DNA of 64,000 nucleotides from Sphingobium sp. KCTC 72723 (GTDB lineage: Bacteria; Pseudomonadota; Alphaproteobacteria; Sphingomonadales; Sphingomonadaceae). Both the position numbers and the translations under genes were made by a program. The notes beneath the pieces were generated by a model. The model was not told the DNA's origin, made no database searches, and saw only the letters and a program-made list of their open reading frames with translations. Each line of letters starts with the position of its first letter. Position 1 is the first letter of the stretch. Below, piece by piece: positions 40,860 to 44,793 of the stretch. Location: positions 3,113,501 through 3,177,500 of the forward strand of contig NZ_CP060388.1 of NCBI RefSeq assembly GCF_014280435.1, read 5' to 3'.

Positions 40860-42461
40860 ATGACCGCCCCCATCCTCGACACCAAAATCGCGCCCGACAG
40901 CGAAACCTTCCGCGCCAACGCCGCGCATAACCGCGCGCTGGCCGATCAACTGCACGCCAGGGTCGCCGACGCCGCGCAGGGCGGCTCCGCATCCGCCCGC
41001 GACAAGCACACCGCGCGCGGCAAGCTGCTCCCCCGCGACCGGGTCGAACGCCTGCTCGACCCCGGTTCCCCCTTCCTCGAAATCGGCCAGCTTGCCGCCA
41101 ACGGCCTGTATGGCGACGAAGTCCCCGGCGCGGGGATCATCGCCGGCATCGGTCGCGTGTCGGGGCGTCAGGTCATGGTCGCCTGCAACGACGCCACCGT
41201 CAAAGGCGGCACCTATTACCCGCTGACCGTCAAAAAGCATTTGCGCGCGCAGGAAATCGCGCTCGAAAACAACCTGCCCTGCGTCTATCTGGTCGACAGC
41301 GGCGGCGCGAACCTGCCCAATCAGGCGGAGGTATTTCCAGACCGCGATCATTTCGGCCGCATCTTCTATAACCAGGCGGGCATGAGTGCGCGCGGCATCC
41401 CGCAAATCGCCTGCGTCATGGGCAGTTGCACGGCGGGCGGCGCTTATGTCCCCGCCATGTCCGACGAAAGCATCATTGTCCGCAATCAGGGGACGATCTT
41501 CCTCGCCGGTCCTCCGCTGGTGCAGGCAGCGACGGGCGAAGTCATCAGCGCCGAAGATCTGGGCGGCGGCGACCTGCACGGGCGCAAATCCGGCGTGGTC
41601 GATCATGTCGCCGAAAATGACGATCATGCGCTGACCATCGTGCGCGATATCGTTTCAACCTTGCAACCCGATCGTACGCCCGACCTCAACCTGCATGATG
41701 TGCGCCCGCCCAAATATGACGCCGCCGAGCTTTACGGCATCGTGCCGCAGGACGTGCGCGCGCCCTATGACGTGCGCGAAGTCATTGCCCGCATCGTCGA
41801 CGGCAGTGAATTTCATGAATTCAAGGCGCTCTACGGCACGACGCTCGTCTGCGGCTTCGCCCATATCTGGGGGATGCCGGTCGCGATCCTGGCCAATAAC
41901 GGCGTGCTGTTCAGCGAAAGCGCAGTCAAGGGCGCGCATTTCATCGAACTGGCCTGCCAGCGCCGCATCCCCCTCCTGTTCCTTCAGAACATCTCCGGCT
42001 TCATGGTCGGCGGCAAATATGAGGCGGAAGGCATTGCAAAACATGGCGCAAAACTCGTCACCGCCGTCGCCACCGCGCAAGTGCCAAAAGTCACCGTGCT
42101 GATCGGCGGCAGCTTCGGTGCGGGCAATTACGGCATGTGCGGCCGCGCCTATCAGCCCCGCTTCCTGTTCACCTGGCCCAATGCGCGGATCAGCGTGATG
42201 GGCGGCGAACAGGCCGCCTCCGTCCTCGCCACCGTCCACCGCGATGCGGCCAAATGGACGCCGGAAGAAGCCGAAGCCTTCAAGGCGCCGGTCCGCGAAA
42301 AATATGAAGAAGAAGGCAGCCCCTATTACGCCACCGCCCGCCTGTGGGACGACGGGATCATCGACCCGGCGCAAACCCGCGACGTGCTGGGCCTGGCCTT
42401 CGCCGCCTGCCTGAACGCGCCGGTGCCGGACAAGGCGCAATTCGGGGTGTTTCGGATGTGA
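40860..42461 (+). CDS. mccB: Methylcrotonyl-CoA carboxylase, carboxyltransferase (beta) subunit
   Basis: 533 residues. Carboxyltransferase halves: [37 protein letters not shown] and [18 protein letters not shown] in the N-terminal domain; [20 protein letters not shown] and [14 protein letters not shown] with [19 protein letters not shown] in the C-terminal domain. It transfers carboxyl from biotin to 3-methylcrotonyl-CoA. It pairs with the biotin subunit at 42952; the two are separated by a DUF559 gene and its repeats. Propionyl-CoA carboxylase is the alternative, but ivd next door favours methylcrotonyl-CoA. Confidence 0.94.
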
Positions 42462-42488
42462 TGGGGGTGGGCGTAGAGGACAACGCCA

Positions 42489-42536
42489 TACCTCCACGGA
42501 ACGGGGAGGGGGACCGCCCGAAGGGTGGTGGAGGGG
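42489..42536 (+). repeat. Left 48-bp inverted repeat flanking the DUF559 gene
   Basis: Matches the reverse complement of 42890-42937 at 44 of 48 positions. It contains an internal hairpin, CCGCCC-GAA-GGGTGG, whose changes relative to the right copy (CCAGCC-GAA-GGCTGG) keep pairing, including one G-U. It begins 28 nt after the mccB stop. Confidence 0.85.
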
Positions 42537-42565
42537 TGTTCAACACTAACTCCGCGACGATCAGG

Positions 42566-42955
42566 ATGGCCAGACGCGAACGCCGCTCCGGCAACTTGCC
42601 TGAAGTGATACTATGGCGCGCATTGCGCCAGCGTCCCGGCGGTTTCAAATTTCGCCGCCAGCATCCGGTCGGCCCCTACAGTCTCGATTTCGCCTGCCTG
42701 TCCGCAAGGCTTGCCATCGAAATCGACGGCGAGGTTCATAATCGCGGCGATCAACCGGATAGCGACGCCGTCCGCGATGCCCATATGAGCGAGCGCGGGT
42801 TCGACACTCTCCGCATTCCCGCAAAGAAAGTCCTGCAATCTGTCGATACTGTCGTCATCGCCATCGTTTCCGCGTGCCGTGAGCGCCAACCCCTCCACCA
42901 GCCTTCGGCTGGTCCCCCTCCCCGTTCCGGGGAGGTAGAAGGACGTCTGCCATGA
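42566..42955 (+). CDS. DUF559 (Vsr-like, very-short-patch-repair fold) endonuclease-domain protein
   Basis: 129 residues from ATG 42566. The domain core is intact: FKFRRQHPVGPYSLDFACLSARLAIEIDG in outline, with the DF, E-x-DG and following His (EIDGEVHN) that form the restriction-endonuclease-like site, then ERGFDTLRIPAKKVL. No good ribosome-binding site is seen; GTG 42536, inside the left repeat, and ATG 42461 are alternatives. The last 22 residues are encoded by the right inverted repeat and its edge, and the stop overlaps the mccA start as ATGA. It splits an otherwise standard mccB-mccA pair, so it is probably a transferred or mobile insertion. Confidence 0.8.
   Translation: MARRERRSGNLPEVILWRALRQRPGGFKFRRQHPVGPYSLDFACLSARLAIEIDGEVHNRGDQPDSDAVRDAHMSERGFDTLRIPAKKVLQSVDTVVIAIVSACRERQPLHQPSAGPPPRSGEVEGRLP
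42890..42937 (-). repeat. Right 48-bp inverted repeat flanking the DUF559 gene
   Basis: Inverted copy of 42489-42536 (44/48). It overlaps the 3' end of the DUF559 reading frame and ends 14 nt before mccA, just upstream of that gene's AAGGA ribosome-binding site. Confidence 0.85.
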
Positions 42956-44793
42956 TCCAATCCCTTCTCATCGCCAATCGCGGCGAAATCGCCTGTCGTA
43001 TCATCCGCACGGCGCGGGCGATGGGCATTCGCACCGTTGCGGTCTATTCGGACGCTGACGCCGATGCCCTCCACGTCCGCGACGCCGACGAAGCGGTCCA
43101 TATCGGCCCGTCGCCCGCGCGTGAATCCTATCTTGTCGGCGACCGCATCATCACCGCCGCCCGGCAAAGCGGCGCGCAGGCGATCCACCCCGGCTACGGC
43201 TTCCTGTCCGAAAACGCTGCCTTTGCGCAGGCGGTGATCGACGCGGGGTTGATCTGGGTCGGTCCCAACCCGTCCTCCATCACCGCGATGGGCCTGAAGG
43301 ACGCGGCCAAGCAGTTGATGCAGGACGCTGGCGTTCCCACCACGCCGGGCTATCTGGGCGCGGACCAGTCGCCTGCACGTCTTGCCGCCGAAGCCGACGC
43401 CATCGGCTATCCTGTCCTGATCAAGGCAGTCGCGGGCGGCGGCGGCAAGGGGATGCGCAAGGTCGATGCGCCCGCCGATTTCGCCGACGCGCTTGCCTCG
43501 TGCCAGCGCGAAGCGGCGTCCAGTTTCGGCAACGACCATGTCCTGCTCGAAAAATGGGTCACCAACCCGCGCCATATCGAAGTGCAGGTGTTCGGGGACA
43601 GTCATGGCAATGTCGTCCATCTGTTCGAACGCGACTGCTCGCTCCAGCGCCGCCACCAAAAGGTGATCGAGGAAGCGCCTGCGCCGGGTATGGACGCGGC
43701 GACGCGCGAGGCGATCTGCTCCGCCGCCGTGCGCGCGGCACAAGCCGTCGATTATGTCGGCGCAGGGACGATCGAGTTCATCGCCGATGGCAGCGAAGGG
43801 CTGCGCGCGGACCGGATCTGGTTCATGGAAATGAACACCCGGTTGCAGGTCGAACATCCCGTGACGGAGGAAATCACTGGCGTCGATCTGGTCGAATGGC
43901 AATTGCTCGTCGCGTCGGGCGAACCGCTGCCCAAACAGCAGGATGCACTCGCCATCAATGGCTGGGCCATGGAAGCGCGGCTCTATGCCGAAGATCCGGC
44001 CAAGGGCTTCCTCCCCTCCATCGGTCGGCTCGACACTTTCGATCTGGGCGCGGGGTGCCGGATCGACACCGGGGTCGAACAGGGCGCGGATATTTCGCCC
44101 TTCTATGATCCGATGATCGCCAAGATGATCGCCCATGGCCCCACCCGTGAAGGCGCCCGCGCCACGCTCGCGGCGGCACTGGACGACAGCGCGATCTGGC
44201 CGGTCAGGACCAATGCCGGGTTTCTGGTGAAGGCGCTGGAGCATCCTGATTTTGTCGCCGCCCGGCTCGATACCGGGTTGATCGGGCGCGAAGGCGACGC
44301 GCTGATGCCAGCGCATCATCCCGATGCCGAAGCGTTGGCAGATGCGGCGGCGGCGTTGACGCCCGGTGGCGTGCTGGCGGGCTTCCGCCTCAACGCGCCG
44401 GTGCGGGCGCAGGCACCCTTTCTGCTCGACGGCGAAGCGGTAACGGTCGCCTTCGATCCCCGCGAAGGCGATGCGCGCGCGCTCGACGATGTGCTGATCG
44501 CGCAGGGTGGTCAGGTATGGCAAATGCAGCCATGGCGTGTGGACGGCGGCGCCTCCGCCACTGCCTCCGACGGCGCGATCCTTTCCCCCATGCCGGGGCG
44601 CATCATCGCCGTGTCGGTCGCGGCGGGCGACGCGGTGGTGAAGGGCCAGAAACTCGTCACATTGGAAGCGATGAAGATGGAACATAGCCTGACCGCACCC
44701 TTCGACGGGACGGTCGCGGAATTGAACGCCGCTGAAGGCGGTCAGGTGAGCGAAGGCACGCTGCTGGTGAAGATAGAGAAGGTCGAAAGCTAG
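42952..44793 (+). CDS. mccA: Methylcrotonyl-CoA carboxylase, biotin carboxylase/biotin carrier (alpha) subunit
   Basis: 613 residues. Biotin carboxylase domain: LLIANRGEIACRIIRTARAMG, HPGYGFLSENAAFA, the ATP-grasp glycine loop AVAGGGGKGMRKV, FMEMNTRLQVEHPVTEEITG. The C-terminal biotinyl domain has Lys575 in LEAMKMEHS. It carboxylates its biotin for transfer by MccB. An AAGGA ribosome-binding site lies 8 nt upstream, and its ATG overlaps the stop of the DUF559 gene. Confidence 0.94.
   Translation: MIQSLLIANRGEIACRIIRTARAMGIRTVAVYSDADADALHVRDADEAVHIGPSPARESYLVGDRIITAARQSGAQAIHPGYGFLSENAAFAQAVIDAGLIWVGPNPSSITAMGLKDAAKQLMQDAGVPTTPGYLGADQSPARLAAEADAIGYPVLIKAVAGGGGKGMRKVDAPADFADALASCQREAASSFGNDHVLLEKWVTNPRHIEVQVFGDSHGNVVHLFERDCSLQRRHQKVIEEAPAPGMDAATREAICSAAVRAAQAVDYVGAGTIEFIADGSEGLRADRIWFMEMNTRLQVEHPVTEEITGVDLVEWQLLVASGEPLPKQQDALAINGWAMEARLYAEDPAKGFLPSIGRLDTFDLGAGCRIDTGVEQGADISPFYDPMIAKMIAHGPTREGARATLAAALDDSAIWPVRTNAGFLVKALEHPDFVAARLDTGLIGREGDALMPAHHPDAEALADAAAALTPGGVLAGFRLNAPVRAQAPFLLDGEAVTVAFDPREGDARALDDVLIAQGGQVWQMQPWRVDGGASATASDGAILSPMPGRIIAVSVAAGDAVVKGQKLVTLEAMKMEHSLTAPFDGTVAELNAAEGGQVSEGTLLVKIEKVES

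Follow-up and report, generated by a model that had tools for sequence, protein, structure and literature searches.

DUF559 nuclease genes bracketed by inverted hairpin repeats: a recurring bacterial layout that resembles REP/RAYT systems

Why should a small nuclease gene, held between two inverted repeats, sit between the two genes of a carboxylase, and is this a single curiosity or one member of a wider system? We asked this of a locus in Sphingobium sp. KCTC 72723. The window, meaning the whole stretch of 64,000 nucleotides that was analysed, lies on the larger contig (contig positions 3113501-3177500) of a 4.43-Mb, 2-contig genome. A preliminary description, made from the letters of the sequence, had reported covarying inverted repeats around a DUF559 gene between mccB and mccA, and had likened the layout to REP/RAYT elements with a restriction-fold nuclease in place of the transposase. 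We confirmed the position. The left neighbour is mccB, encoding the carboxyl transferase subunit (40860..42461, plus strand; Pfam PF01039), and the right neighbour is mccA, encoding the biotin carboxylase subunit (42952..44793, plus strand; Pfam PF02786, PF00289 and others). Both names come from the preliminary description, and the Pfam domains agree with them. From the mccB stop, a filler without strand (42462..42488), which is missing in empty-site alleles, leads to the left arm (42489..42537, plus strand). The DUF559 (Vsr-like PD-(D/E)XK) nuclease gene follows (42566..42955, plus strand, 129 aa). The C-terminal tail of the nuclease is for the most part encoded by the right arm (42889..42937, minus strand), an inverted copy of the left one, and a second strandless filler (42938..42951) extends from this arm to the mccA start. 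As had been described, the genes overlap here, the nuclease TGA (42953-42955) with the mccA ATG (42952).

The repeats proved slightly longer than first described: each arm has 49 nt, the two are 45/49 (92%) complementary in inverted orientation, and the spacing between them is 351 nt. Towards the nuclease gene, each arm runs hairpin, hairpin, G-rich tail, with the left arm's hairpin 1 at 42491-42509 (one mismatch) and its hairpin 2 at 42513-42529. Folding was computed for single-stranded DNA. On the strand that reads from hairpin to G-rich tail, both arms gave the same two hairpins (-11.4 and -16.6 kcal/mol), while on the opposite strand the two-hairpin fold was lost in the left arm. Of the two compensating changes claimed earlier, one does replace both partners (G-C to C-G), but the other alters one side only and leaves a wobble pair (A-T to G-T). 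In the left arm, moreover, the other hairpin contains an A/G mismatch. A 33-nt arm pattern with up to 3 mismatches occurred at two places only in the window (zero in 100 shuffles), and the whole genome held no match to it beyond these two arms. Rfam gave no match over 42000-43500, and PADLOC gave only weak partial matches.

The encoded protein contains an intact DUF559 domain (Pfam PF04480, E 1.6e-23, above cut-off; MTES_1575 matched below cut-off). The core motifs are intact, as had been stated, in that all residues invariant across 17 diverse DUF559 members (D, E-x-D, H) are kept. Translation likely starts at the ATG at 42566, rather than in the 203-aa ORF that enters from mccB, since 129 aa equals the length of a 93%-identical Sphingobium homolog; the nearest relatives of the protein are from Sphingobium, at that identity. 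AlphaFold2 modelled the core with mostly high confidence, and a loop (residues 57-61) and the tail with low confidence. Foldseek ranked 3hrl first, a protein that itself matches the DUF559 profile, and the homing endonuclease I-Bth0305I second, with Vsr much weaker. The NCBIfam Vsr model matched one of three DUF559 proteins weakly and the window protein not at all. YcjD-like proteins were earlier assigned to the PD-(D/E)XK superfamily, according to the part of PMC1189080 consulted. In a sample of 398 genomes from the phylum, 145 carried the domain.

The idea that the window element is a one-off was rejected when other DUF559 genes were compared. All five in its own genome are bracketed by inverted hairpin-plus-tail arms, matching within each pair and different between genes. 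For an arm score, the upstream flank of each gene was aligned locally with the downstream flank in reverse complement (threshold at least 16); loci were chosen by protein match alone and not at random. Arms were present in 31/33 loci of the genus and order (the own five plus the best match of 29 genomes; L047, at a contig edge, was dropped), in 16/30 phylum loci (best match of 30 genomes), and in 28/40 further phylum loci, hand-picked down the list and mostly one per genome. This totals 75/103 loci, against 0.5% of 2030 in-locus controls of the same geometry. The 80 best of 575 relatives, taken as named loci, gave 58/79 (L287, at an edge, was dropped), against 1.6% of 2099 controls; judging by the titles of their records, Pseudomonadota are in the majority among them, and many are MAGs. 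Beyond Pseudomonadota, arms were found in Nitrospira, a gastranaerophilalean cyanobacterium, a dehalococcoid, a planctomycete and aminicenantes; Geobacter is also listed as arm-bearing. The arm pair was missing at 28/103 loci; at 15 of these a hairpin or triplex motif still lies no more than 700 bp away, a count that has no control, and motifs within 2 mismatches of the triplex consensus discussed below adjoin several pair-less loci. With a looser pattern, a triplex-like arm lay on both sides at 126/182 loci, with tails inward at 102 and outward at 4, and the pattern's density was 3.8 per kb near DUF559 versus 0.49 per kb further out. Some arrangements depart from the common one. The arms at L064 and L265 are exceptionally long (about 100 and 150 nt), and one unit of the own genome (L152, 3920150-3920900) has a third arm 57 bp outside the left arm, the tails of these two diverging.

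Selection on a folded form, suggested at the outset from this locus, was borne out by the wider set. In 116 arm pairs scoring at least 20, with arms over 80 nt omitted, there were 32 compensated stem pairs, where 2.6 were expected (maximum 8 in 200 randomisations). They were spread over 26 loci with at least one such pair; 25 further stem changes were one-sided and still pairing, and 63 were broken. Columns differing within arm pairs made up 6.2% in stems and 11.4% in the rest. 

The repeats and the gene also go together at the level of whole genomes. The hairpin pattern CCCTCYC(N2-16)GRGAGGG was counted in 398 genomes alongside a control pattern. Its median was 32 where DUF559 was strong (108 genomes, E<1e-15), 1 where it was weak (37) and 0 where it was absent (253), while the control median was 1 in each group. 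Hairpin-rich genomes, defined as having at least 10 hairpins and more than three times the control, were 80/108 with strong DUF559 versus 17/290 without (OR 46, p 1.7e-42). Permutation within families (17 families, 218 genomes) gave p 5e-5, the minimum attainable with 20000 permutations. There were exceptions in both directions: 28/108 strong-DUF559 genomes are not hairpin-rich, those of families f43 and f46 being nearly all hairpin-poor, and 17 genomes are hairpin-rich but lack a strong DUF559. In five of the latter (G211, G200, G221, G259 and G360), the enzyme may have been lost or another partner may exist. A converse search of the 398 genomes, in which DUF559 was not used, looked for two hairpin halves 365-395 bp apart and found 32 genomes; 18 of 30 returned loci contained the DUF559 domain. 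Of the 12 brackets without DUF559, several consist of hairpin arrays, and in three a full hairpin is lacking. Where a hairpin stood at each end and none between, judged by eye, DUF559 was present in 14/17 loci, or 15/18 with L338. Taken together, these counts (75/103, 58/79, the odds ratio of 46 and 18/30 brackets) indicate that repeats and DUF559 genes are not distributed independently.

Copies without a gene are common as well. The own genome has 56 CCCTCYC-type hairpins, against 3 for the control. Nine inverted short pairs lie 77-103 bp apart, with tails inward as around genes and variable spacers, in which they resemble REPINs; the right tail of one (L139) is worn. A further pair, next to the L004 gene and separated by 57 bp, has its tails outward. 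Among the 50 of 56 sites listed, neighbours 150-2000 bp apart form four pairs, each holding a DUF559 gene. In E. coli, a short pair between hrpB and mrcB differs between strains: it is present in L311 and L314, absent from L313 and L317 and partly deleted in L318.

Are these units inherited in place, or do they change sites? Both patterns were seen. Fifty-two locus pairs have similar protein and arms, 14 at different sites and 38 with shared flanking genes, a call that rests on up to 1.4 kb per side. The 38 were inherited in place, and they account for much of the resemblance between the arms of close proteins. Protein and arm likeness were correlated within genus (Mantel rho 0.32 versus a permutation maximum of 0.27 of 1000); over all loci rho was 0.16 and the permutation maximum 0.17 of 300. 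For L001, L036 and L038, inspection by eye shows similarity as far as the outer arm ends and no further. The mccB-mccA junction was examined in 50 of 61 genomes. It is empty in 25 (gap of 24 nt or less, some overlapping), so alleles with an empty site do exist; it holds DUF559 in the window orientation in 5 (own genome included), an oppositely oriented DUF559 of 52-61% identity in 7, a GIY-YIG-like gene in 5 and other occupants in 8. On a tree of the 50 loci, at least 17 changes of state are required (shuffled mean 23.3), so the states are also partly inherited. Sisters within the sample differ (L083/L084 and L086/L106), sister species have different DUF559 genes in opposite orientation, and L125, with DUF559 at the junction, sits amid empty alleles on the tree. 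Inspection by eye revealed no target-site duplication at mccB-mccA, L001/L036/L038 or hrpB-mrcB, sites whose flanks have diverged, and no transposition event was seen in the loci compared. The suggestion of a possibly mobile element is supported by the empty-site alleles and by the joint distribution of repeats and DUF559 genes, with the enzyme as the putative agent of movement.

The arms are not a new kind of repeat. By their sequence, DUF559 arms belong to the class known as intrastrand triplex motifs (TM_ECO; earlier PIT), which we take to be the class also called box C. The two share a C-rich strand, a G-rich strand and a second G-rich tail, and both occur in inverted pairs and at intergenic sites. 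The window arms are off the strict consensus (CCCTCNCCCN3-6GGGNGAGGGN3GGGNGAGGG) in that an extra hairpin replaces the second loop. The parts of the 2015 survey we draw on (PMC4666352) report the motifs from 262 proteobacterial genomes, with 23 in E. coli MG1655 (five inverted pairs), 29 in E. coli 55989 and one in IHE3034; by its references, such repeats have been in print since about 1992. In that text, the motifs are described without an enzyme, mobility activities such as transposase remnants are said never to have been met around the sites, and the main text lacks the terms endonuclease, DUF, ycjD and Vsr. A stable triplex in vivo was not found, according to the portion of Holder 2015 used here. 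In the open PMC literature, outside which most subscription papers lie, no paper joined DUF559 with inverted repeats, and those joining it with palindromic were unrelated.

The survey's own table, in the part used here, lists a copy near a DUF559 gene of E. coli. K-12 ycjD (1351407-1351760) is annotated as DUF559, and survey motif no. 9 (1351204-1351239) is 167 bp away; a second, imperfect triplex copy overlaps the end of ycjD. Such repeats flank ycjD on one side only, and the E. coli copies are those of the table. Sixty evenly spread E. coli records were sampled, one of plasmid size being set aside. Repeat-like places had a median of 22 in ycjD-positive strains (n=37, range 14-33; the ycjD locus itself is counted) and 6 in ycjD-negative ones (n=22, range 2-23; p 1.9e-8), a contrast that is confounded by phylogroup, some ycjD-negative strains reaching 14-23 places. 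According to the part of PMC12817139 consulted, ycjD and eefRABCD are alternatives at one locus, and we saw this alternation in one example. Beyond what was first described, then, the layout recurs across bacteria, its repeats are a known orphan class, and E. coli ycjD belongs to it.

A second nuclease family was seen in a comparable position. Inverted REP-like repeats bracket small GIY-YIG genes, and several of these repeats, as at L206 and L216, are of CGTC type. In the own genome this applies to 6/6 small GIY-YIG genes (L132-L137), and a seventh, with a 679-aa frame and UvrC-like by size, is without repeats. Overall, 16/35 loci were bracketed (L226, at an edge, was dropped), with controls at 0.2% of 483; those beyond the own genome are L199, L201, L206, L208, L211, L216, L218, L220, L221 and L225. 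The GIY-YIG-like gene of the mccB-mccA junction (L089, L094, L096, L097 and L126) lies between inverted CGTCATGCTGAACTTGTTTCAGCATCC repeats, and in L089 and L094 a DUF559-type hairpin is kept beside it. CGTC REPs apparently have no dedicated transposase, according to the part of a 2013 survey consulted (PMC3733652), and the open PMC literature held no paper joining GIY-YIG with repetitive extragenic palindromic or REP elements.

Based on these observations, we consider it probable that each DUF559 gene acts together with its two arms as a unit in a REP/RAYT-like system, with a Vsr/homing-type nuclease instead of a Y1 transposase. The nuclease would recognise its cognate arm, most likely as folded single-stranded DNA at replication forks, in the form of a hairpin plus G-rich tail and possibly an intrastrand triplex. 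It would nick or cut at the arm, and arm pairs would then be copied by repair or strand transfer to further intergenic locations. A gene that has both its arms would be the rare autonomous copy, the numerous short-spacer inverted pairs the non-autonomous copies, and solo repeats the remnants. At the level of sequence, bracketing, stem covariation and the finding of like arms with close proteins at unrelated sites support the proposal, as do genome-level co-occurrence, the presence and absence of units and short pairs at orthologous sites, and the purifying selection that acts on the nuclease. From these patterns we infer binding and cutting of the folded arm by the protein, and movement of the repeats as a result, through a copying step.

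The likeness to REP/RAYT systems (REPtrons, REPINs) drawn in the preliminary description is supported by the empty sites and the joint distribution reported above. In both, one or few nuclease genes per genome are flanked by inverted palindromes, and many short inverted pairs, with solos elsewhere, occupy intergenic sites, although no additional copy of the arm subtype seen in the window was found. RAYTs are low in copy and vertically inherited. The DUF559 protein is a PD-(D/E)XK nuclease, however, and not an HUH/Y1 tyrosine transposase like a RAYT, and the GTAG or CGTC tag is missing from the five own-genome DUF559 arm pairs. The system would function in the manner of a REPtron without belonging to that class, since the RAYT enzyme that defines REPtrons was looked for and not found. 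MITEs are likewise short inverted-repeat units at intergenic sites, but DUF559 units have no recognised target duplication, variable spacers and a partner other than a transposase.

An unlikely alternative is that the nuclease gene is a homing-type invader, which cuts existing pairs and is copied in by recombination between arms, the repeats having spread otherwise. I-Bth0305I, of the EDxHD group, is the best characterised structural match to the window protein and, after 3hrl, its closest solved fold, and the short pairs resemble ready empty sites in the same orientation as the gene's arms. I-Bth0305I is intron-borne and site-specific, however, and we know of no palindromes that bracket it. 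Such an invader would also be expected as several near-identical genes per genome, whereas the own five are divergent, each with its own arm type, and the link of hairpin number with DUF559 presence would be left unexplained.

We also think it improbable that the protein is a housekeeping or repair nuclease acting on folded repeats or mismatches, kept where repeats are many, with the arms serving autoregulation. Vsr, of the same superfamily, works in mismatch repair with a cytosine methylase. Caulobacter VsrA, a protein with a DUF559 domain, is genotoxic when the ScmA methylase is absent and was proposed as a mismatch-repair enzyme, according to the part of PMC12907096 consulted. The nuclease is under strong purifying selection (dN/dS 0.05-0.12 in six comparisons of four orthologs), and stem mispairs on one strand are more often T.G than A.C (14 versus 4 arms' pairs, 11 versus 4 loci; p 0.03), an excess that is at most suggestive of a hairpin mismatch as the recognition mark. 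What this reading leaves unexplained is the like gene with like arms at new sites and the differing junction occupants of sister species.

A conventional transposon, with the arms as terminal inverted repeats and DUF559 as a passenger, would fit the inverted ends and the unit-like boundaries, yet is very unlikely. The supposed passenger recurs between arms (in 18 of the 30 brackets), and five of the 12 DUF559-less brackets (L320, L322, L336, L341 and L344) show no recognisable or common gene by eye. The arms match within a pair and differ between genes, and the own-genome interiors, about 350-365 bp, leave little space for a second gene. Finally, ordinary terminators or an insertion hotspot, paired by chance, could account for intergenic hairpins and for a junction that hosts other genes too, but are rejected as scarcely credible, since control positions reach only 0.5-1.6% and the repeat class tracks the nuclease family (by a classifier written after the data were seen, 121 of 133 DUF559 arm pairs are of triplex-motif type, 4 both and 8 neither; 15 of 16 GIY-YIG pairs are of CGTC or other REP type and 1 both).

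In conclusion, there is about an even chance that some of the palindromes most common in bacteria owe their spread to simple nucleases rather than to transposases. At least two unrelated families would be involved, DUF559 for triplex/PIT repeats and small GIY-YIG proteins for CGTC REPs, and RAYTs would be one case among them. If the mobilisation step should fail, what remains is a new genomic association. Long-known orphan repeats gain a candidate partner enzyme, one that is present in E. coli K-12, a strain for which gene knock-outs, protein purification and synthetic repeats are routine, and a possible role is offered for a family that is still named a 'domain of unknown function'.
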